A stretch of 64,000 nucleotides of DNA from Methylobacterium sp. WSM2598 (GTDB lineage Bacteria; Pseudomonadota; Alphaproteobacteria; Rhizobiales; Beijerinckiaceae), in the NCBI RefSeq assembly GCF_000379105.1, contig NZ_KB900609.1, forward strand, positions 1,761,985-1,825,984. The letters run 5' to 3'. Below the pieces are notes generated by a model that worked only from the letters and a program-made list of their open reading frames with translations, made no database searches and was not told where the DNA came from. How positions within the stretch are numbered: position 1 is the first letter of the stretch; each line of letters starts with the position of its first letter. Below, in pieces: positions 1 to 9,939 of the stretch. The translations under genes were made by a program, and so were the position numbers.

Positions 1-252
1 CTTGGAGTGCAGCACGACCGCGTCCGCCGTCGTGTAGAAGCAGTTGACCGGGCAGACGGCCGCGCAGGGCGCGTCCGTGCAGTGCATGCAGGCCATCGAC
101 ACCGAGCGCTCGCCCGGCTTGCCGTCGTTGAGCGTGATCACCCGGCGCCGGTTGATGCCCCAGGGCACCTCGTGCTCGTTCTTGCAGGCGGTGACGCAGG
201 CGTTGCACTCGATGCAGCGGTCGGCGTCGCAGAGGAACTTCATTCGCGCCAT
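1..252 (-). CDS. fdhB: Formate dehydrogenase beta (iron-sulfur) subunit, partial
   Basis: This is the N-terminal 84 residues of the electron-transfer subunit of a respiratory-type formate dehydrogenase; the rest lies beyond the window start. It relays electrons from the molybdenum subunit through [4Fe-4S] clusters to the membrane partner or other acceptors. Two ferredoxin-type cysteine groups are visible: C13, C16, C19, C23 (CIECNACVTAC) and C55, C58, C63, C67 (CMHCTDAPCAAVC), typical of FdoH/FdnH-like proteins. The start is ATG at 252; an in-frame ATG at 243 is the alternative. It follows the alpha subunit by 18 nt on the same strand, so both are surely co-transcribed. A gamma subunit, if present, would be outside the window. 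Confidence 0.93.
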   Translation of the reverse strand, partial: MARMKFLCDADRCIECNACVTACKNEHEVPWGINRRRVITLNDGKPGERSVSMACMHCTDAPCAAVCPVNCFYTTADAVVLHSK

Positions 253-270
253 GGTCTTGGCCTCACATCC

Positions 271-3234
271 TTACGCGGCCTGGATCTGGCAGAGGGTGAC
301 CTTGGTCTCCTGCATCCCCGTGACGGGGTCGAAGCCGTAGGTCGTGACCGTGTTGACGCTCTCGCCCAGCACCACGGGGTCGGTGCCCTTCGGGTAGAAG
401 GCGCGCATGTCCTTGCCCTGGTACCAGCCCGAGAAGTGGAACGGCATCCAGGCCACGCCCTTCGCCACCCGGTCGGTCACCAGCGCCTTCACCTTGGTCT
501 TGGCGCCGTTCTCCGGGCCGTAGACCCAGACGAACTGCCCGTCCCTGATGCCGCGCTCGGCCGCGTCCTGCGTGTTCACCTCCACGAACATGTCCTGCTG
601 CAACTCGGCGAGCCAGGGGTTCGAGCGCGTCTCCTCGCCGCCGCCCTCGTACTCGACGAGGCGGCCCGACGACAGGATGATCGGGAAGTCCCTGGCGATG
701 GCCCGGTCCACCGCCGCCTTCTGGACCGAGAAGCCGAGGTTCGGCATGCGGAACTGGCGCTCGTCGGGCCGGGTCGGGTACTTGGCGACGAGGTCGGGCC
801 GGGGCGAGTAGATCGGCTCCCGGTGCACCGGCACCGGGTCGGGCAGGTTCCAGGCATTCGCCCTCGCCTTGCCATTGCCGAAGGGCGTGACGCCGTGCTC
901 CAGGCAGACCCGCTGGATGCCGCCCGACAGGTCGGTGGCCCAGCTCACCGCGTCGATGTTATTGCCGCCGATCCGGGTGATGACGGCCATCTCCTCGGGC
1001 GTCAGGTCCCTGTCCCAGCCGAGCTTCTTGAAGACACCCATGGTGAATTCGGGGTAGCCGTCTGTCAGGTCGGAGCCGACGGAGAAGGAATCCTCGGCCA
1101 GCAGGGTCTGGCCGTTGCGCTCGGTGCCGAACCGCGCCCGGAAGGTGCCGCCGCCGTCCTTCACGTGCAGGGCCGTGTTGTAGAGGATGTGCGTGCCGGG
1201 ATGGCGGATCTCCGGCTTGCCCCAGCACGGCCAGGGCAGGCCGTAATAGTCGCCGCCGACCTCCGGATCGTCCTTGGGCGCGCGCAGCGTCACGAGATCG
1301 AACTTGTGCTGGTTGCGCATGTGCGCCTTCAGGCGCTCCGGGCTCTGCCCGCAATAGCCCGTCGACCAGCCGCCGCGGTTGATCTCCCGCAGCAGGTCCT
1401 CCGCCTCCGGCACGCCGTCCGTTACCTTGATGTTCTTGAACATCCGGTCGGCGAAGCCGAGCTTGGCGGCGAGCCGGTAGATCACCTCGTAGTCGTTCTT
1501 CGATTCGAAGGCGGGCTTCACGATCTGCTCGCCCCATTGCAGCGAGCGGTTCGAGGCCGTGCGCGACCCGTCCATCTCCAGCGAGGTGCAGATCGGCAAG
1601 AGGTAGGTGTTGTCCCGCCGCGCGTCGAGCGCCGCGAAGGTGGTCGGGTGCGGGTCGGCCACGACCAGGAGGTCGAGGGCGCTCATGCCCTTCACGGCCT
1701 CGGGCAGGCGCGTCACGGTGTTGCCGCCGTGGCCGAACACCATCATGGCCCGCAGGGGCGCCCGCTGGTCGACCTGGTCGGCCGGCAAGGTGACGGCGTC
1801 GAACCAGCGCGTCGAGGTGATCCCGGGCGCCTCCATGTTCTCCTTGCGCGAGCGCGCCTTGCGCCCGGCCAGCGTCGGCACCTCGTCGAAGCGCGATTGC
1901 AGCCACTCGTACTCGACGTCCCAGACCCGGGCCCAGTGCCGCCAGCCGCCCTCGACGAGCCCGTAATAGAGCGGCAGCGTCGTCACATCGAGGCCGAGAT
2001 CGGTCGCGCCCTGGACGTTGGTGTGCCCGCGGAAGATGTTGGCGCCCGTGCCGGGCTTGCCGACGTTGCCGGTCGCGAGGCACAGGATGCAGAAGGCCCG
2101 CACGTTGGCGGTGCCGACCGTGTGCTGGGTCGCGCCCATGCACCAGATCAGGGTCGCGGGCTTCTCCTTGGCGAAGAGTTCGGCCACGCGCCGCAGCTGC
2201 TCGCCCGGCACGCCGGAGACCCGCTCGACCTCCTCGGGGGTCCACTTGGCGACCTCCTTGCGGACATCCTCCATGGCGTAGACGCGGCTGCGGATGAACT
2301 CCTTGTCCTCCCAGCCGTTCTGGAAGATGTGCCAGAGCATGCCCCAGATCACCGGGATGTCGGTGCCCGAGCGCAGGCGGACGTACTCGGTGGCGTGGGC
2401 GGCCGTGCGGGTGAAGCGCGGGTCGATGACGATCAGGTTCGCCCGGTTGATCTCCTTGCCCGAGAGCACGTGCTGCATCGAGATCGGATGCGCCTCGGCC
2501 GGGTTGCCGCCCATGATGATCATGGTCTTGGCGTTGCGGATATCGTTGTAGGAATTGGTCTGGGCGCCGTAGCCCCAGGTGTTGGCGACGCCCGCCACGG
2601 TGGTCGAGTGGCAAATCCGGGCCTGATGGTCGACGTTGTTGGTGCCCCAGAACGCCCCGAACTTGCGGAACAGGTAGGACGCCTCATTCGTGAACTTGGC
2701 CGAGCCGAGCCAGTAGACCGAATCCGCGCCGCTCTTCTCGCGGATGGCGAGGAGCTTGGCGCCGATCTCGTCGATCGCCTGCTCCCAGGAGATCCGCTTC
2801 CACTCGCCGTTCTCAAGCTTGATCGGGTATTTCAGGCGGCGCTCGCCGTGCACCAGTTCGCGGATCGCCGCGCCCTTGGCGCAGTGGGTGCCGCGGTTGA
2901 TCGGGCTCGCCCAGGAGGGTTCCTGGCCGACCCAGACCCCGTTCACCACCTCGGCCGTTACCGTGCAGCCGACCGAGCAATGCGTGCAGATGTTCTTGCG
3001 GATCGTCACCTCGGGCCCGCTCACCGCCGAGCCGGCGGCCCGGGCGGGACGCACGGCGCCGAGCCGGAGGCTCCCGGCGGCCGCGAGTCCGCCCGCGGCG
3101 AGCCCGGAGCGGCGCAGGAAGCTGCGGCGATCCAGGGTCTCCGGCAGAGCACCTGCGGCCAGGGAATGATGGGCGCCGGCGGCCGGGGAGGGGGCCGCGC
3201 GGCCCGCGGCGCCGTCTCTGCGCTTCTTCAGCAT
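271..3234 (-). CDS. fdhA: Formate dehydrogenase alpha (molybdopterin) subunit, Cys type
   Basis: The 987-residue catalytic subunit oxidises formate to CO2 at a Mo/W-bis-MGD centre. Near the N terminus a twin-arginine signal (DRRSFLRRSGLAAGG, residues 35-49) predicts Tat export after folding. C83, C86, C90 and C118 hold the proximal [4Fe-4S] cluster. The metal ligand is Cys208 in QARICHSTTV, where the E. coli enzymes carry selenocysteine. The molybdopterin oxidoreductase domain follows and the C-terminal dinucleotide-binding domain ends the protein. Length is close to FdnG/FdoG (about 1015). GAGGG before the ATG is a good ribosome site. It lies 7 nt after a small Tat protein and 18 nt before the beta subunit, downstream of its TorD-type chaperone. 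It resembles the FDH3 type of Methylobacterium. Confidence 0.96.
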   Translation of the reverse strand: MLKKRRDGAAGRAAPSPAAGAHHSLAAGALPETLDRRSFLRRSGLAAGGLAAAGSLRLGAVRPARAAGSAVSGPEVTIRKNICTHCSVGCTVTAEVVNGVWVGQEPSWASPINRGTHCAKGAAIRELVHGERRLKYPIKLENGEWKRISWEQAIDEIGAKLLAIREKSGADSVYWLGSAKFTNEASYLFRKFGAFWGTNNVDHQARICHSTTVAGVANTWGYGAQTNSYNDIRNAKTMIIMGGNPAEAHPISMQHVLSGKEINRANLIVIDPRFTRTAAHATEYVRLRSGTDIPVIWGMLWHIFQNGWEDKEFIRSRVYAMEDVRKEVAKWTPEEVERVSGVPGEQLRRVAELFAKEKPATLIWCMGATQHTVGTANVRAFCILCLATGNVGKPGTGANIFRGHTNVQGATDLGLDVTTLPLYYGLVEGGWRHWARVWDVEYEWLQSRFDEVPTLAGRKARSRKENMEAPGITSTRWFDAVTLPADQVDQRAPLRAMMVFGHGGNTVTRLPEAVKGMSALDLLVVADPHPTTFAALDARRDNTYLLPICTSLEMDGSRTASNRSLQWGEQIVKPAFESKNDYEVIYRLAAKLGFADRMFKNIKVTDGVPEAEDLLREINRGGWSTGYCGQSPERLKAHMRNQHKFDLVTLRAPKDDPEVGGDYYGLPWPCWGKPEIRHPGTHILYNTALHVKDGGGTFRARFGTERNGQTLLAEDSFSVGSDLTDGYPEFTMGVFKKLGWDRDLTPEEMAVITRIGGNNIDAVSWATDLSGGIQRVCLEHGVTPFGNGKARANAWNLPDPVPVHREPIYSPRPDLVAKYPTRPDERQFRMPNLGFSVQKAAVDRAIARDFPIILSSGRLVEYEGGGEETRSNPWLAELQQDMFVEVNTQDAAERGIRDGQFVWVYGPENGAKTKVKALVTDRVAKGVAWMPFHFSGWYQGKDMRAFYPKGTDPVVLGESVNTVTTYGFDPVTGMQETKVTLCQIQAA

Positions 3235-3241
3235 CGCGCCC

Positions 3242-3460
3242 TCACTTCTTCAGGGTCTCGTAGCCGTTGGTCCGGTAGAAGGCCTTCACGTGGTCCGTCT
3301 CCCGGTAGCGTGCGCGGGTCTCCTCCGAGCCCGGATCGTAGGCCTTGGCCTCCCCGGTCGAGAGCGGCGAGACCAGGGCCGCGGCCGCGGCCGCGGTGCC
3401 ACCGCCGAGCGCGCGAAAGAATTGCCTGCGGCCAAGCTGGTCATTCCTGTCCGATTTCAT
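3242..3460 (-). CDS. Small Tat-signal protein of formate dehydrogenase loci
   Basis: This 72-residue protein is almost entirely a twin-arginine signal (LGRRQFFRALGGGTAAAAAAL) followed by about 35 polar residues ending in NGYETLKK. Such proteins are a recognised family found next to formate dehydrogenases (formate dehydrogenase region TAT target), but their role is not established. It sits between the chaperone gene and the alpha subunit in the same operon. The ATG at 3460 is preceded by GAGGAGCGGG, a strong ribosome site. One inference is that it helps export or membrane placement of the enzyme, for example by bringing a Tat signal to the complex. Confidence 0.85.
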   Translation of the reverse strand: MKSDRNDQLGRRQFFRALGGGTAAAAAALVSPLSTGEAKAYDPGSEETRARYRETDHVKAFYRTNGYETLKK

Positions 3461-3489: not shown

Positions 3490-4137
3490 TCACGCGTCGA
3501 TGGCGAAGGCAGCGGTCTCGATCTCGATGAAACTCCGCCCGAGCGCTCCGACCGCCCGGTAGAGGGGCGTCGCCGCCTCGGTCTCGATGTCCTCGAAGAG
3601 GCGGCGCGCCCAGGGTTTCAGGTGGCGCTCGAAGAAGAGCTGCTCGCTTGGCGATTCCGCCCCGAAGCGCCGCTCCGCCAGCGCGGCCATCACCTCGAGG
3701 AGAATCGCGATGTGGTCCTCGGGTTCGCTCACCCGCGGGTCGCGCTCGATGCCGAGCCGCGCCAGATCCTCGCGCAGCCGGGCCAGCGGGCGCTCGTTGA
3801 GGAAGCCGGTGAGGTAATAGGAGGCGTAGGGCAGGATCTTGCCGCGCCCGACGCCGATGAAGAGCTCGAAATAGTCGCGTTCCACGGCGCGAAGGTCGGC
3901 CTCGGCGGCCGCATCCGCCAGGGCGGCGTGCGCCTGCCCGAGCGGCGTATCGTTGCCGCTCACCCCGCGCAGCGCCTCGATGAGGCCCGCATCCGGCGCT
4001 TGGCCCAGGATCGCCGCGAGCCCGCCGTAGAGGCGCGCGCGCAACACGTCGATCTCGTCGACATTCGGGTCCTGATCCGCCACCAGCGCGTCCACACCGA
4101 GGGCTCGGTCCACTTCGACGTGCCCGACCCCTCGCAT
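3490..4137 (-). CDS. TorD/DmsD-family redox-enzyme chaperone
   Basis: A 215-residue all-alpha cytoplasmic chaperone of the TorD family, expected to bind the Tat signal and apo form of the formate dehydrogenase alpha subunit until the molybdenum cofactor is inserted. The family signature is seen as YASYYLTGF mid-protein and EPEDHIA (the E-x-x-DH motif) further on. The ATG at 4137 has GAGGG five bases upstream; a GTG at 4143 is possible. The gene is 29 nt before the small Tat protein and upstream of fdhA, which fits a dedicated maturation factor. An 84-90 nt gap separates it from the preceding DUF3306 gene, so a second promoter may lie there. Confidence 0.9.
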   Translation of the reverse strand: MRGVGHVEVDRALGVDALVADQDPNVDEIDVLRARLYGGLAAILGQAPDAGLIEALRGVSGNDTPLGQAHAALADAAAEADLRAVERDYFELFIGVGRGKILPYASYYLTGFLNERPLARLREDLARLGIERDPRVSEPEDHIAILLEVMAALAERRFGAESPSEQLFFERHLKPWARRLFEDIETEAATPLYRAVGALGRSFIEIETAAFAIDA

Positions 4138-4214
4138 CTCCACCCTCGCCTCGCGGTCGATCCGCCGCGTTTTGCAATTTGCACCATATACCGTGGCGGC
4201 CGCGCCGCAATCCT

Positions 4215-4229
4215 ACTTTTTAATGCCTC
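4215..4229. promoter_or_regulatory. Motif shared by the two formate dehydrogenase leader regions (copy 1)
   Basis: The 15-mer ACTTTTTAATGCCTC matches 13 of 15 bases with 7850-7864 (ACTTTTCAACGCCTC). It lies in the gap before the TorD-fdhA part of the operon and overlaps the stop codon of the DUF3306 gene. A second small inverted repeat (TGCAA-A-TTGCA) lies nearby at about 4171-4181. A regulator site or internal promoter is an inference only. Confidence 0.3.
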
Positions 4230-4929
4230 AAAGCGGCATCGCGCCGCCGTGGCGGCGGGCGCGGCGCCGCTTCGCGGCGTTTTCCGGGGCTTCCGGGCGG
4301 ATCTGCGCCGGCTCGGCCGCGTGGCGGGGCGGGGCGTCCGGGCCGGTCTCGGCCGCATCCGGGGCCTCCTCCCGCCCGGCCTCCTCCCGCCTGGCCTCCT
4401 CCCGCGCGGCCTCCTCCCGCGCGAGCTCGAGAGCGGGCGGGGCTTGGGGGCCGGGGAGCGCCGGGGTGACGACGCTCTCGCGCCCGGATGGCCCATCCGC
4501 GGGGTCGTGCCCGGGCGCGGCTCGGGCGGGCTCCCCCGCGATCACGCGCTCGACCATCGCGGCGACGTCGTCGGTCGGCAGGAGCGGCCCGGCGCCCGGG
4601 ACGTCGCCCGGGACGTTCCAGTCCCAGGCGTATTCGCGGGCCTCGCTCACGAAGTCGCGGATGGCGGGGTCGAGGGACCACATCCGCCGCAGCGCCGCGT
4701 TGCGCAGCGCCCTCGGCACGCCCGCCCGCAGGAACTGCGCGAGGTCGGTCTGCGGGGTCAGCGCGTCGAGGGAGGGCAGCCTCGCCAGCTCCTCGGGCGG
4801 CAGCTCCGGCTCGGCCGCGTCCGGCCCTGGCGGGGGCGCGGTCTCGCCCGCGCGGTCCGGGGTCTCCCGCACCGGGCGCGCGCCGTCGCGCTTGAGGCGC
4901 GACCACCGCGACAGGAAATCCCCGCTCAC
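4228..4929 (-). CDS. DUF3306 protein of the formate dehydrogenase operon
   Basis: A 233-residue protein whose N terminus, GDFLSRWSRLKRDG, is the hallmark of DUF3306 proteins that accompany formate dehydrogenases. The middle part (LPSLDALTPQTDLAQFLR) is conserved in the family; the C-terminal third is a low-complexity stretch rich in Ala, Glu, Arg and Pro, including a repeated REEA pattern. The start is a GTG at 4929 that overlaps the stop of the DUF3305 gene as GTGA. The biochemical role is unknown; the constant pairing with DUF3305 suggests a maturation or assembly function for the dehydrogenase. Confidence 0.85.
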   Translation of the reverse strand: MSGDFLSRWSRLKRDGARPVRETPDRAGETAPPPGPDAAEPELPPEELARLPSLDALTPQTDLAQFLRAGVPRALRNAALRRMWSLDPAIRDFVSEAREYAWDWNVPGDVPGAGPLLPTDDVAAMVERVIAGEPARAAPGHDPADGPSGRESVVTPALPGPQAPPALELAREEAAREEARREEAGREEAPDAAETGPDAPPRHAAEPAQIRPEAPENAAKRRRARRHGGAMPL

Positions 4930-5453
4930 CGCTCGTCGTCCCGGCGCCGCCCCTGGCGGGCGAGCGCCTCCGGGTCGGCGCGGTCGCGCTTGCGCTTCTC
5001 GAACGGGCGCTCGACGTGGTGGGCCGCGTAGTAGGCCGCGAGCCAGGCCTGCATCTCGGGCGGCATCGGCACCGCCTCGACGATCTCGCCGATCCCCTCC
5101 GCCAGCGCCTCGCCCTCGTAGGGATCCGCCGTCACCGTGGCGATCTCGTAGGTCTCCGGGCCGACCGGGCGCAGCGCGATCCACAGCGAGGGCTGCGCGG
5201 AGGCGAGGTTGTCGCCGTAATGGGCGGTCTCGGCCGGGTGCAGCGCGACCGTGACGCTGCCGGCGTAGAAGGTCTCCTCCGCCTCGCTCGCGCCGAGGCG
5301 GGTCCAGGGCGGCGTCTCCGGCCGGCCCGGGAGGGCGGCGACGGGGAGCCAGGCATGGCTCGCCCAGGGCCCCTTGAGGCGGCGCTTGGCGACGATCACC
5401 CCGACCTCGTAGCGGGGCGCGACGCCCGCGCGGCGCGGATCCGCCTCGCTCAC
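4926..5453 (-). CDS. DUF3305 protein of the formate dehydrogenase operon
   Basis: A 175-residue soluble protein. Recognisable DUF3305 features are the early VGVIVAKRRLKGPWASHAW segment, a central PSLWIALRP strand and a late MPPEMQAWLAAYYAAHH helix, followed by a basic tail. It begins with GTG at 5453, overlapping the upstream DUF6352 stop as GTGA, and ends with the same overlap into DUF3306, so translation of all these genes is probably coupled. No catalytic motif can be seen. Function is unknown beyond the association with formate dehydrogenase. Confidence 0.85.
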   Translation of the reverse strand: MSEADPRRAGVAPRYEVGVIVAKRRLKGPWASHAWLPVAALPGRPETPPWTRLGASEAEETFYAGSVTVALHPAETAHYGDNLASAQPSLWIALRPVGPETYEIATVTADPYEGEALAEGIGEIVEAVPMPPEMQAWLAAYYAAHHVERPFEKRKRDRADPEALARQGRRRDDER

Positions 5454-6469
5454 AGGGGTTCTCCGACGAGCGGGAGGCCGGCGATCAGGTTCTGGGGCTT
5501 CACGGTGACGCGGCGATCCGGATTCATGGCGAGCAGGAGGTAGACCGGCTGGTCTCCCAGCCGTGGGTCGAGGCCGGCCGTCTCCGCGAAGGCGAGCGTG
5601 AACAGGGCGAGCACCCGGGCGCGGGTCTCCTCGGGCAGGGCCTCGCCGCGCCAGAGCGCGTTGCCGATCCGGGTCGCCTCCGCGTCGAGGCCGACGAACC
5701 AGCGCCAGTCCCGGTCCTCGATCCGGGCGACCGGCGCCACGCTCACCCGGCGGTGCAGGAGGTGGCGGATCCAGGCCTCGATCACCCGGGCGAGCCCCTC
5801 GCGGCTGCGCGGATCGGAGCCGAGATTGAGCGCCATCGTGAAGGCGTCCGAGCGGCTCCAGTAGGTCCAGGCCGTCTCGGGCGTCAGCACGTCGAGGTCG
5901 CCGATCGGCTCGCGGCCCAGCATGGCGACGAGGGGCGAGGGCCGGGCGCGGCCCTCCTCCAGGTCGACCAGCTCGGCATCCGCCAGGAGCAGCGCGCCTT
6001 CCGTCGCCGAGACCGCCTGCACCGAGACCGCCTGCGGACGGAAGAACAGCTCGCCCGCCCGCAGCACGTAGGGGTCCTGGCAGCCGTCGAGGGCGTTGCG
6101 CAGGATGAGGTGGACGAGCTGGTTGAGGAAGAGCGGCGGCGTCCCCCCGCCGCCCCGGCGCACGAGGTCGAGATACGCGTCCTCGACCGAACGGGCCGCC
6201 AGCAGCCGGTCGCGGAAGGCGAGCACGACCTGCCAATTCTCGCGCGCGTCGGCATCCGCGACGGCGGCGACCTCCTCCGGCGCCACGGCGCGGCGCGGCG
6301 CGGCCCGCAGGCGCGCGTGCAGCGCCCGCTCGGCTGCGCAGGCCTCCGGCGGGGGCACGAGTTCCGGCCGCGCCAGGTAGGCGAGGAGCAGCTCGTCCGT
6401 CACCGCGAGCCCGCCGCCCTCCTGGCGCCGGGCGAGGTGGTGGCCGCTCGAGACCCAGAATTCCGTCAC
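5450..6469 (-). CDS. DUF6352 protein of the formate dehydrogenase operon
   Basis: A 339-residue soluble protein starting VTEFWVSSGHHL with a GTG codon at 6469. The opening and the segment AYLARPELVPP match proteins annotated DUF6352 next to formate dehydrogenases. It is rich in helices and has no signal peptide or membrane segment. The N-terminal third carries a single notable Cys (PPEACAAE). It is joined to both neighbours by GTGA overlaps. The role is not known; its constant company of DUF3305/DUF3306 and a TorD chaperone suggests assembly, cofactor delivery or regulation of the enzyme. Confidence 0.8.
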   Translation of the reverse strand: MTEFWVSSGHHLARRQEGGGLAVTDELLLAYLARPELVPPPEACAAERALHARLRAAPRRAVAPEEVAAVADADARENWQVVLAFRDRLLAARSVEDAYLDLVRRGGGGTPPLFLNQLVHLILRNALDGCQDPYVLRAGELFFRPQAVSVQAVSATEGALLLADAELVDLEEGRARPSPLVAMLGREPIGDLDVLTPETAWTYWSRSDAFTMALNLGSDPRSREGLARVIEAWIRHLLHRRVSVAPVARIEDRDWRWFVGLDAEATRIGNALWRGEALPEETRARVLALFTLAFAETAGLDPRLGDQPVYLLLAMNPDRRVTVKPQNLIAGLPLVGEPL

Positions 6470-7029
6470 GGCGCCCGGCTCCCCATCAGGCCGACGAGGT
6501 CGACCGCCTCCTCGGGCTCGTCGTCGGTCTCGGCGAAGTCGAAGGCGCGCGCGTAGGCGTGGCGGCGGTCGGCGCCCGGCACGGCCCCCTCGCGGGGGCG
6601 CAGCACCCGGTACTGCTCGCGGATCTCCCCGGCCTCGACGGCGCGGTGGAGCGCCAGAACGGAATTCACCGGAGGCTGGCAGAGGGCGGCGGCGGCGGCG
6701 ATCTCCTCGGCCGCGGCCTCCCGCGCGGCGGCGAGGCTCGGGGCGCCGAGCCGCGCGTGGATCTGGGCCGCGAGCGCCTCGGTGGCGGCCTCCCGCTCGG
6801 CCTCGCTCGCCTCGCTGACCACCACGAGGGTCGAGAAGCCGAACGAGGCGATGCCGAGGAAGCCGGAGCGGAAGGCGATCCGCGCCTTGGGCGCCAGGGC
6901 GGCCGGATCGGCGTCGAGGAACAGGAAGGAGCCGGTCACCGCCCATTCGCCGGGTTCGGCGGCCCGCGCGAAGACGAGCGTGTCGGAGGCGTCGAGGCGC
7001 AGCGTGCGGGGCAGCTTCAGGCGGGTCAC
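6466..7029 (-). CDS. DUF6505 protein of the formate dehydrogenase operon
   Basis: A 187-residue soluble protein beginning VTRLKLPRTLRLDASD (GTG start at 7029). It has an SFLFLDAD strand, a long central helix and an acidic C terminus. It resembles the family annotated DUF6505 in formate dehydrogenase loci. Both ends overlap neighbouring genes by GTGA. No known catalytic residues were recognised. As with its neighbours, function is inferred only from location. Confidence 0.75.
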   Translation of the reverse strand: MTRLKLPRTLRLDASDTLVFARAAEPGEWAVTGSFLFLDADPAALAPKARIAFRSGFLGIASFGFSTLVVVSEASEAEREAATEALAAQIHARLGAPSLAAAREAAAEEIAAAAALCQPPVNSVLALHRAVEAGEIREQYRVLRPREGAVPGADRRHAYARAFDFAETDDEPEEAVDLVGLMGSRAP

Positions 7030-7781
7030 AGGCGCGGTGCTCCGGTCGCCGGATCGAGCCAGGCGGGCGCGCGCAGCGCCTCCCCGAGCGGCCGCGGGCG
7101 CGTCCCCTCCGGGCCGACCGCCAGGGCGTCGCCGTGCCCGTCGATGGTGAGGCGCTCGCCCGGCGGCTCGGCCAGGACGGCGCGGTAGCGCGCGAGGGCG
7201 AAGGCGAAGCCGTCCTCCTCCAGGTCGGAGAGGCCCTTCATCAGGTACTGGGCGAAGCTCTCGACGATCGGCCCGGCGGTCTCGGGCGCGAACCCCTCCT
7301 CCTCCAGCGAGGTCGAGTCCGGCGTGAGGCCGGGATCGCCGGCGTGACGCTTCGAGGCGATCAGCATGCAGGAGAAGACGAGCCAGTCCGGTACCTCGTC
7401 CTCGCCGCAGGCCTCCGGCCAGGCGAGGCGCCCGCCGCCGAGGCGCGCCCCGTCGAAGCGCAGGGTCAGCGGCCACTCGACCGCGACCGGCTTGTCGGGA
7501 GGGGCGTGGCTGCCGAGCGCGTCGGCGAGCGCGCCCATCCCGATCAGCGCCGCGCGGCGGGCGAGGCGGAGGGGCTCCTCGGGGGCGAGCACGACCGCCG
7601 CCTCGATCACGCGCTCCCCGGCCGAGAGGATGAGGGTGCCGGCCGCGTCCGCGTCCGCGGCCCGGCGGCAGGCCTCGGCCTGCGCCGATCCGGGCGGATC
7701 GAGCGTGACCAGGGTGAAGGGCGGCGGCAGCATCAGGCCGGTCGCGAGGGGCTGCGGCGTGGCGGAGTGGGCGGCGGACAT
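7026..7781 (-). CDS. Biotin/lipoate ligase-like protein lacking catalytic motifs
   Basis: This 251-residue protein resembles the biotin/lipoate-protein ligase fold: the segment VEWPLTLRFDGARLGGGRLAW aligns with the KWPND...GKKLGGIL part of BirA, and a C-terminal helical YLMKGLSDLEEDGF region follows. The two ligase signatures seem degenerate: no GRGR-type adenylate loop is present where ILSAGERVIEAAVV stands, and KWPND reads EWPLT. It is therefore probably not an active ligase. The ATG at 7781 opens the whole minus-strand operon and the stop overlaps the DUF6505 gene. It faces a divergent iron-sulfur gene across about 145 bp. Confidence 0.75.
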   Translation of the reverse strand: MSAAHSATPQPLATGLMLPPPFTLVTLDPPGSAQAEACRRAADADAAGTLILSAGERVIEAAVVLAPEEPLRLARRAALIGMGALADALGSHAPPDKPVAVEWPLTLRFDGARLGGGRLAWPEACGEDEVPDWLVFSCMLIASKRHAGDPGLTPDSTSLEEEGFAPETAGPIVESFAQYLMKGLSDLEEDGFAFALARYRAVLAEPPGERLTIDGHGDALAVGPEGTRPRPLGEALRAPAWLDPATGAPRL

Positions 7782-7849
7782 GGCGGAGAACCCCCGCGGC
7801 GGAGAACCCCCGCGCGCCGGAACAACCCTGCGCGCACGTGTCGGGTCGC

Positions 7850-7873
7850 ACTTTTCAACGCCTCCTATATAGG
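7850..7873. promoter_or_regulatory. Divergent control region of the formate dehydrogenase locus
   Basis: Between the divergent ligase-like and iron-sulfur genes lie ACTTTTCAACGCCTC (7850-7864, shared with 4215-4229) and, directly after it, the 10-bp palindrome CCTATATAGG (7864-7873). This is the only AT-rich spot in the gap and probably holds promoter or operator elements for one or both directions. Confidence 0.35.
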
Positions 7874-7926
7874 GGCGGGACGGCCTGCAAGAGGCCCGAA
7901 TTCCAGTCGAGGCCGAGGACAACACC

Positions 7927-9939
7927 GTGCCGGATCGCGTCGTGATTGCCTGTTCCTGCGAGGGGACCATCCCGCTCGACGCGGAGGCGATCGGCCGCGG
8001 CTGCGGCGGCCGGGTCGAGACCGGCGAGGCGCTCTGCACCCGCGAGCTCGACCGCGCGCGGCGGCTCCTCGCCTCCGGCGATCCGGTGACCCTGGCCTGC
8101 ACCCTGCAGGCCCCGCTCTTCGACGAACTGGTCGAGGAGGTCGGGGCGCAGGACCGCGTCGCCTACGCCAATATCCGCGAGGCGGCGGGCTGGTCCGCCG
8201 AGGGCGCCGCGGCCGGCCCCAAGATGGCGGCGCTCCTCGCCGCCGCCGCGGAGCCGATGCCGCCCGCGCCCGTGGTGAGCTTCGAGAGCCGGGGCGTGGC
8301 GCTCGTCTACGGGCGGGACGAGACCGCGATCGAGGTCGGGCGCCGCCTCGCCGATCACCTCGACGTCACGGTGCTGCTGACCCGGCCCGGCGACGTGGTG
8401 CCCCCGCGCGGGGCGGAGTTCCCGGTCCTCAAGGGCACGATCCGCCGGGCCGGCGGGCATCTCGGCGCCTTCACGCTCGGCATCGACGCCTACGCCCTGC
8501 CGCGCCCCTCCTCGCGGGAGCGCCTCCTGTTCGGGGAAGGCCACGACGGCGCGACCTCGACCTGCGACATCGTGATCGACGTCTCGGGGGAGGCGCCGCT
8601 CTTCCCGGCCCACGCCCTGCGCAGCGGCTACCTGCGGGCGGATCCCCGCGACCCGGCGGCCGTGGCCGCGGTCTTGTTCGAGGCCTCGCACCTCGTCGGC
8701 ACCTTCGACAAGACCCGCTTCATCGCCTTCAAGGACGGGCTCTGCGCGCATGCGCGCTCGCGCATCACCGGCTGCAGCCGCTGCCTCGACGTCTGCCCGA
8801 CCGGGGCGATCGCGCCGGCCGGCGACCACGTGGCGGTCGATCCCTTCGTGTGCGCGGGCTGCGGATCCTGCGCCTCGGTCTGCCCGACCGGCGCGGCCGC
8901 CGCCACGCTCCCGCCCGCCGACGCGCTGCTGCGGCGCCTTCGCCGCCTCCTGCGCGCCTACGCGGCGGCGGGCGGGGAGGGCGCCGTGGTGCTCCTCCAC
9001 GACGGCGATCACGGCGAGGCGCTGATCGACGCGCTCGCCCGCTTCGGCGCCGGCCTGCCGGCCCACGTCCTGCCGGTCAGGGTCAACGAGGTGACTCAGG
9101 CCGGGCTCGACCTGCTCACCGGCGCCTTCGCCTTCGGGGCGACCGGGGTGCGGCTCCTGGCGCGGGCGCGGCCGAAGCACGACCTGACCCCGCTCCGGGG
9201 CGTCCTGGCGCGGGCCGACGCGATCCTGCAGGCGCTGGGCTACGGCCCCGCGGACGGCGCCCCGGTCGTGTCGCTGATCGAGACCGACGACCCGGACGCG
9301 CTCGGGGCGGCGCTGGCGGCGGGCCCCCGCGGCACCGCGACGGCCGCGCCGGCGGGCTTCGTGCCGGAGGGGGAGGCGCGCGAGGTGCTGCGGCTCACCC
9401 TTCGCGAATTGCACCACGCGGCGCCGCGCCCGGTCGACCGGATCCCCCTCGATCCCGGGGCGCCCTTCGGCGGGCTCGACTTCCGCACCGAGGCCTGCAC
9501 GCTCTGCCACGCCTGCGTGGGCGCCTGCCCGACCGGCGCGCTCAGCGACGATCCGGACCGTCCGCTCCTGAGCTTCTCGGAGAGCCTCTGCGTGCAGTGC
9601 GGCCTCTGCGCCGCGACCTGCCCGGAAGACGTCATCACCCTGGAGCCGCGGCTCGACTTCGCGGCCTGGGCGGCGCCGCGCCGCGTCCTCAAGGAGGAGG
9701 AGCCGTTCGCCTGCGTGGCCTGCGCCAAGCCGTTCGGCACCCGCAGCACGGTCGAGCGGATCATCGGGCGGCTGCAGGACAAGCACTGGATGTTCGCCGG
9801 GACGGCCGGCCAGGACCGCCTGCGCGCGCTGATGATGTGCGAGACCTGCCGGGTCTCCCACGTGCTCGCCGAGGGCTTCGACCCCCACGCCGCCCCGCCG
9901 CCGCGGATGACCGAGGATTACCTGCGCGAGCGGGGCTGA
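7927..9939 (+). CDS. Multi-cluster 4Fe-4S protein of the formate dehydrogenase locus
   Basis: This 670-residue cytoplasmic iron-sulfur protein has four ferredoxin-type motifs in two pairs: CSRCLDVCP and CAGCGSCASVCP near residues 280-325, and CTLCHACVGACP and CVQCGLCAATCP near 525-570. An N-terminal Cys-rich domain (IACSCEGTIPLD, later CTREL and LACTLQ) recalls HdrA-like sequences. The C terminus has two more CxxC pairs (CVAC, CETC) that could bind zinc or a cluster. The start is GTG at 7927. It is transcribed away from the dehydrogenase operon and ends before a perfect palindrome. It probably moves electrons to or from the formate dehydrogenase system; the partner is unknown. Confidence 0.85.
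   Translation: MPDRVVIACSCEGTIPLDAEAIGRGCGGRVETGEALCTRELDRARRLLASGDPVTLACTLQAPLFDELVEEVGAQDRVAYANIREAAGWSAEGAAAGPKMAALLAAAAEPMPPAPVVSFESRGVALVYGRDETAIEVGRRLADHLDVTVLLTRPGDVVPPRGAEFPVLKGTIRRAGGHLGAFTLGIDAYALPRPSSRERLLFGEGHDGATSTCDIVIDVSGEAPLFPAHALRSGYLRADPRDPAAVAAVLFEASHLVGTFDKTRFIAFKDGLCAHARSRITGCSRCLDVCPTGAIAPAGDHVAVDPFVCAGCGSCASVCPTGAAAATLPPADALLRRLRRLLRAYAAAGGEGAVVLLHDGDHGEALIDALARFGAGLPAHVLPVRVNEVTQAGLDLLTGAFAFGATGVRLLARARPKHDLTPLRGVLARADAILQALGYGPADGAPVVSLIETDDPDALGAALAAGPRGTATAAPAGFVPEGEAREVLRLTLRELHHAAPRPVDRIPLDPGAPFGGLDFRTEACTLCHACVGACPTGALSDDPDRPLLSFSESLCVQCGLCAATCPEDVITLEPRLDFAAWAAPRRVLKEEEPFACVACAKPFGTRSTVERIIGRLQDKHWMFAGTAGQDRLRALMMCETCRVSHVLAEGFDPHAAPPPRMTEDYLRERG

Follow-up and report, generated by a model that had tools for sequence, protein, structure and literature searches.

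Biotin protein ligases of the BirA type use a beta-sheet face for their carrier protein, and catalytic roles belong to individual BirA residues, K183 included; the LplA and LipB acyltransferases have a conserved catalytic Lys or Cys. The P. horikoshii BirA mutants named in PDB titles (R48, R51, D104 and K111) were taken by us to mark corresponding residues. The described protein nearest to the one reported here is 3BFM of Silicibacter sp. TM1040 (TM1040_0394), deposited as a "biotin protein ligase-like protein of unknown function", for which no functional paper was found in the open literature. Two cytoplasmic helpers of formate dehydrogenase are treated in the available text of PMC10609526, where FdhE is limited to periplasmic formate dehydrogenases and FdhD binds GDP and the cofactor. 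In the available part of PMC4464133, genes for DUF3305, DUF3306, fer4 and fdh-tat adjoin TorD/DmsD and fdhGHI genes. PMC13396061 describes a strain of the methylotroph Methylorubrum extorquens PA1 that is deleted for fdh1 to fdh4.

The DNA analysed here (the window) was a 64,000-nucleotide stretch of Methylobacterium sp. WSM2598; its nearest named relatives likewise pointed to a Methylobacterium-like Alphaproteobacterium. An open reading frame on its minus strand (7026–7781), starting with ATG and containing the stretches TLILSAGERVIEAAVVLAPEEP and VAVEWPLTLRFDGARLGG pointed out in the initial annotation, encoded a 251-aa protein, here called BPLx, at the head of a run of formate dehydrogenase genes:

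7026..7781, minus strand: BPLx, catalytically degenerate biotin-protein-ligase-fold protein, 251 aa (Pfam, AF2, Foldseek, VIA-align, alignment)
6466..7029, minus strand: DUF6505 protein, overlapping the end of BPLx, a frequent partner (Pfam; AF2 model without a PDB match)
5450..6403, minus strand: DUF6352 protein, alternative start GTG 6469 possible (Pfam)
4926..5453, minus strand: DUF3305 protein, aligning to a MobA-DUF3305 fusion model in its DUF3305 portion (Pfam, NCBIfam)
4228..4929, minus strand: DUF3306 protein (Pfam)
3490..4143, minus strand: TorD/NarJ-type molybdoenzyme chaperone, start uncertain (Pfam, NCBIfam)
3242..3460, minus strand: formate dehydrogenase region Tat-target small protein (TIGR02811)
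271..3234, minus strand: FdhA, catalytic molybdopterin subunit (N-terminal twin-arginine stretch DRRSFLRRSG, read by eye)
1..252, minus strand: 5′ part of FdhB, the remainder past the window edge and followed by FdhC outside the window
7927..9939, plus strand: divergent 670-aa 4Fe-4S protein, present in 78/80 named loci

The order on the minus strand was thus BPLx, DUF6505, DUF6352, DUF3305, DUF3306, TorD-type chaperone, TIGR02811, FdhA, FdhB and FdhC. The initial annotation had placed BPLx first in a nine-gene transcript; its leading position and the nine genes within the window were confirmed, and the count rose to ten with FdhC past the edge. From gene spacing and overlaps we infer a single transcript. 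No sigma-70-type promoter or intrinsic terminator was found in a scan of 7000–8200. A perfect 16-bp tandem repeat, GGCGGAGAACCCCCGC twice, was seen by eye at 7782–7813, directly upstream of the BPLx start codon. The run is of the same operon type as the TorD/DmsD-fdhGHI operons, in the available part of whose account (PMC4464133) BPLx, DUF6505 and DUF6352 are not mentioned.

BPLx matched the Pfam family PF16917 (BPL_LplA_LipB_2) with 180 bits against a cut-off of 27, and no other family, FdhE and FdhD among them, appeared at E values up to 1. FdhE and FdhD would thus resemble BPLx by analogy, in the niche of cytoplasmic help to formate dehydrogenase proposed below, but differ in showing no sequence relation to it. 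The single PDB sequence match of BPLx from the window was 3bfm_A (E 3e-19); a profile built from this protein and 25 relatives gave E 3e-79 with 3bfm and, at best, E 7e-10 with true BirA chains. An AF2 model, computed from 65 sequences (the window protein and 64 of its best 80 relatives), had a pLDDT of 93.6 and a pTM of 0.90. Foldseek placed 3bfm at the top (E 4e-19) with biotin protein ligases next, and VIA-align gave Z 28 for 3bfm over 221 residues, about 22 for M. tuberculosis BirA and 19–20 for E. coli BirA. The fold was shared with BirA over its whole length, C-terminal domain included, with the alignment reaching model residue 235–240. The ligase-like fold claimed in the initial annotation was therefore upheld by the Pfam family, the 3bfm_A match, AF2, Foldseek and VIA-align, and the predicted structure that it had called for resembled 3bfm and then BirA-type ligases, not a fold foreign to ligases.

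By the profile match and the VIA-align score, 3BFM belonged to the same subfamily as BPLx, but it was just 28–30% identical to BPLx of the window. In the alignment it had no GRGRRGR and read LDWNG at the place of BirA VKWPN. Both this fold (3bfm) and the family (PF16917) were already known beforehand, and public records name such proteins "biotin/lipoate--protein ligase family protein" or "DUF4444 domain-containing protein". A 1729-aa open frame at locus L049 was considered as a BPLx fusion and rejected; it looked like a high-GC run-on, because Pfam found PF16917 alone.

Residues of the ligase site were compared in an alignment of 107 BPLx proteins (the window protein, 25 diverse loci, L058 and 80 named loci; L049 was left out and used in the tree), 14 same-class BirAs and E. 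coli BirA. A second, more diverse set held 39 BPLx and 35 BirA proteins. Two sites in the window were marked by the losses:

7617..7634, minus strand: junction of the deleted GRGRRGR biotin/adenylate loop, about residues 50–55 (alignments)
7467..7481, minus strand: VEWPL, residues 101–105, at the place of BirA VKWPN (alignment; K172 to E102, N175 to L105)

E. coli BirA Q112 to R121, which spans the GRGRRGR loop, fell opposite gaps in 107/107 BPLx, window included, while R118 of the loop was kept in 14/14 same-class BirAs. BirA D176 corresponded to T106, the codon after VEWPL, so that the window reads EWPLT. A third element was also lost, E. coli K183 being R113 in the window and K in 0/107 BPLx. 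Retention among the 107 was 0 for K172, K183 and N208, 1 for G206, 2 for D176 and 3 for N175, against 14/14 for each of these six in the same-class BirAs. The diverse set gave the same picture: K172 and K183 in 0/39 BPLx versus 35/35 BirA, S89 in 4/39 versus 34/35 and T90 in 0/39 versus 34/35, with D176, N208 and G206 each kept in 1/39 BPLx and N175 in 4/39. Scaffold residues were common to BirA and BPLx (W173 37/39, P174 34/39, G257 39/39), the difference being that all tested catalytic elements were lost or nearly so in BPLx. The initial annotation had reported the loss of both GRGRRGR and KWPND; both losses held, with the correction that GRGRRGR is deleted and not substituted. As shown by the homologue alignment that it had proposed, the losses were fixed at other formate dehydrogenase loci, where the loop was gapped in 107/107 and either lysine kept in 0/107, and no intact adenylate site was seen elsewhere in BPLx. 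The pattern of motif loss is fixed across the BPLx family and is not due to chance.

No column of K or C reached 70% identity in the 39 BPLx, so a substitute nucleophile was not visible; a conserved catalytic Lys or Cys of the LplA/LipB type was likewise not found in these 39 at the same level. Conserved polar columns were R178 (36/39), E162 (33/39), D87, T157 and H179 (31/39 each) and D32 and R118 (29/39 each). These seven residues may form a new site, to judge from their conservation; the window protein departs from the columns with Q178, Y179 and S32. A salt bridge between D32 and R118 that would plug the former biotin pocket was considered and rejected: the two residues occurred together in 24/39 and each alone in 29/39, and there was thus no real covariation. 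A conserved C-terminal tail, W.DP.T..PR, was present in only 22/80 and was dropped.

In an unrooted tree of 74 proteins, one branch (support 100/99) separated the 39 BPLx from the 35 BirA. Since they part at a single branch, one loss event fits, unless the root lies inside BPLx. Relatives (64 proteins) were 42–58% identical to BPLx of the window, and dN/dS, obtained with our own counting script, was 0.12–0.36 in 12/12 chosen related pairs from named loci; being well below 1 in all 12, it indicated that the gene is maintained. The genome of the window held a second, motif-intact BirA at a separate place. On these sequence comparisons, BPLx is a predicted pseudoenzyme paralogue: a clade without the catalytic residues, under purifying selection, with a catalytic BirA in the same genome.

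The formate dehydrogenase linkage recurred in relatives. Eighty named loci were taken as the best 80 of 239 relatives in one genome scan, and 80/80 of these best loci held at least one further gene of the FDH3 cluster: Fer4 in 78, DUF3305 in 78, DUF6352 in 78, DUF6505 in 77, DUF3306 in 75, TorD in 69 and FdhA in 66, several loci being cut by contig ends and two showing Fer4 and DUF6505 alone. DUF6505 started at most 50 bp from BPLx in 70 of the 76 named loci measured, and overlapped it in 65 of them. Among 27 diverse BPLx loci, each had at least one further cluster gene; FdhA lay in the fetched stretch of 19 and not in that of L034, L038, L039, L043, L047, L048, L057 and L061. Genomes G135 and G236 (L038 and L039) carried BPLx-DUF6505-DUF6352 as a block of its own, with DUF3305 on a different contig. 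Three genomes from a second class of the phylum (G347, G409 and G443) likewise had BPLx next to formate dehydrogenase genes.

Co-occurrence was counted in 289 genomes of the class and 398 of the phylum, two sets that share seven BPLx genomes. Of the 398, 28 had BPLx and 27 DUF6505 (both 25, BPLx alone 3, DUF6505 alone 2, neither 368; p 4e-34). The class set held 28 genomes with BPLx, 28 with DUF6505 and 23 with both; DUF3305 occurred in 42 genomes, namely 27/28 with BPLx and 15/261 others (p 4e-26, the species not being independent). Relatedness among the species makes the p values (1e-24 to 4e-34) look stronger than they are. As 15 of the 42 DUF3305 genomes lacked BPLx, such genomes can dispense with it. 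DUF6505 without BPLx was seen in 5 of the 28 DUF6505 genomes of the class set; at the four such loci fetched, L177–L180 of G028, G159, G226 and G281, it was not close to formate dehydrogenase genes.

The 28 BPLx genomes of the class set were counted after the proteins had been read; matches of 95–123 bits in G087, G226 and G159 and the second match in G228, all carrying GRGR and KWPN, were counted as BirA. In the phylum set BPLx was called at a score of at least 181 bits, the best BirA there scoring 166; 17 of its 28 BPLx proteins were read, including three below 200 bits, and the other 11 were called by score, each with at least 225. An intact BirA of G228, a genome outside that set, scored 189 bits with a profile that we built from the same alignment, and score alone thus does not cleanly part BPLx from BirA. 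The intact BirAs of G028, G159 and G226 scored unusually high against PF16917 (95–105 bits).

FdhE was found in 13 of the 289 class genomes (12 above cut-off), with no match in the 28 BPLx genomes or the 42 DUF3305 genomes. This absence was not significant for BPLx (Fisher p 0.62) or for all DUF3305 genomes (0.23), so that a replacement of FdhE by BPLx, as tested by co-occurrence, went in the right direction without statistical support. Of the 48 BPLx genomes known in addition to that of the window, 34 were searched for FdhD, and 33 of these gave a match. In the assembly of the window, which is 93% complete, a Pfam search gave no match to either FdhD or FdhE.

The preserved fold, the erased site, the lack of a new conserved nucleophile, the recurrent operon partners and the selection together argue for a pseudo-ligase. 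On balance we consider it somewhat probable that BPLx is an ex-BirA-like, non-catalytic maturation factor of the Tat-exported, membrane-anchored formate dehydrogenase (NCBI "FDH3"). The step from pseudo-ligase to scaffold or chaperone is one that we infer. In this view BPLx, a BirA relative, would have lost its adenylation site but been retained, and would work as a cytoplasmic scaffold that binds proteins, partnered by DUF6505 and in most lineages also by DUF6352. Its task would be holding or proofreading either FdhA or an accessory protein during insertion of Fe-S and the molybdenum/tungsten cofactor, before Tat export, in organisms without FdhE; the partner surface may be, as a guess, the beta-sheet face. 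A wider proposal is tentative and, in our view, doubtful: BPLx and DUF6505 (with DUF6352) might be the core of a checkpoint, hitherto undescribed, in the maturation of periplasmic formate dehydrogenase in Alphaproteobacteria, built round a dead biotin ligase, taking the place of FdhE and recognising FdhA or an accessory protein by the former carrier-protein face. The initial annotation had suggested a dead ligase fold reused for binding a cofactor, peptide or partner of the dehydrogenase, and as a whole this was partly supported.

The main rival, so ranked because one better-conserved stretch adjoins the former adenylate loop, is that the old ligand pocket binds, without activating it, a nucleotide-like ligand such as a guanine-dinucleotide pterin cofactor, BPLx being a cofactor carrier. 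That stretch, PG..PD.T.L.EEG (window residues 150–163; G151 35/39, T157 31/39, L159 36/39, E162 33/39, G163 37/39), aligns to what we take to be the place of the adenylate-binding loop of BirA. The neighbouring DUF3305 protein matches a MobA-DUF3305 fusion model, and FdhD, according to the available text of PMC10609526, offers the precedent of a formate dehydrogenase helper that binds GDP and cofactor. We nevertheless regard such a carrier as unlikely, as the BirA pocket positions are variable or changed in type (G206 1/39, N208 1/39) and the glycine-rich loop, which in BirA folds over the bound ligand, is deleted from 107/107. Stable membership of BPLx in the mature formate dehydrogenase complex, instead of a part in its assembly, would fit the shared operon and frequent linkage; it is improbable, however, since no Tat/Sec signal was seen by eye at the N-terminus of BPLx, whereas FdhA has a twin-arginine stretch, and the blocks of G135 and G236 stand apart from the DUF3305 contig, with no FdhA in the fetched stretch.

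A surviving enzymatic role of BPLx, through an active site for acyl or sulfur transfer that has escaped recognition, is suggested by the ligase name of PF16917, by a public record that attaches "protein modification process", and by the few conserved polar columns (e.g. E162, R178 and H179). With no conserved Lys or Cys, both ligase lysines lost in 107/107 and the window protein itself lacking R178 and H179, we think this very improbable. Least credible of all is an ordinary degenerate duplicate hitch-hiking in the operon, as might be read from the missing BPLx of 15/42 DUF3305 genomes, since dN/dS well under 1 in 12/12 pairs and the 42–58% identity over 64 relatives speak against it.

If BPLx is a maturation factor of the kind preferred here, the finding bears on FDH3 maturation, which is relevant to methylotrophy and to CO2/formate conversion. 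BPLx is fixed in an operon with several other domain-of-unknown-function proteins, the orphan structure 3BFM gains a biological setting, and "ligase", as databases call it, is probably a misnomer for this branch. In the open literature, no paper was found that ties a biotin-ligase-like protein to formate dehydrogenase; nor did the open literature yield one on a pseudoenzyme with the fold of biotin ligases, and a search of open PMC literature by BPLx locus, Pfam and DUF names found none.

Among the operon partners, the window DUF3305 protein (4926–5453) aligned to positions 220–369 of the 382-position NCBIfam MobA-DUF3305 fusion model, with 80 bits, far below the model cut-off; the match is a hint that the protein may be connected with the guanylyl step of the molybdenum cofactor. 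DUF6505 was considered as a biotinyl-domain-like partner and rejected: its AF2 model (pLDDT 84) had no Foldseek PDB match below E 1, which for a predicted model does not imply a new fold.

A Sinorhizobium meliloti plasmid record (L206) had the same gene order, with fdh3B annotated as the FDH3 beta subunit, and in a Sulfitobacter plasmid record (L207) apbC, a gene for an ApbC-type iron-sulfur carrier, lay directly before BPLx. ABC transporter genes were close to the FDH3 cluster in both records, as were molybdopterin genes in L206, and DUF6494 lay beside or near the 4Fe-4S gene in both. In five loci, all of Methylobacterium or the genus of the window, a gene of the phosphate-selective-porin family (PF07396) stood between BPLx and DUF6505 as an insertion of the same orientation:

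L040:9629–10909 and L085:5742–7022: PF07396 gene (Pfam-checked)
L078, L084 and L120: PF07396-like gene (similar translation)

Formate or Mo/W oxyanions could enter across the outer membrane by way of this porin.
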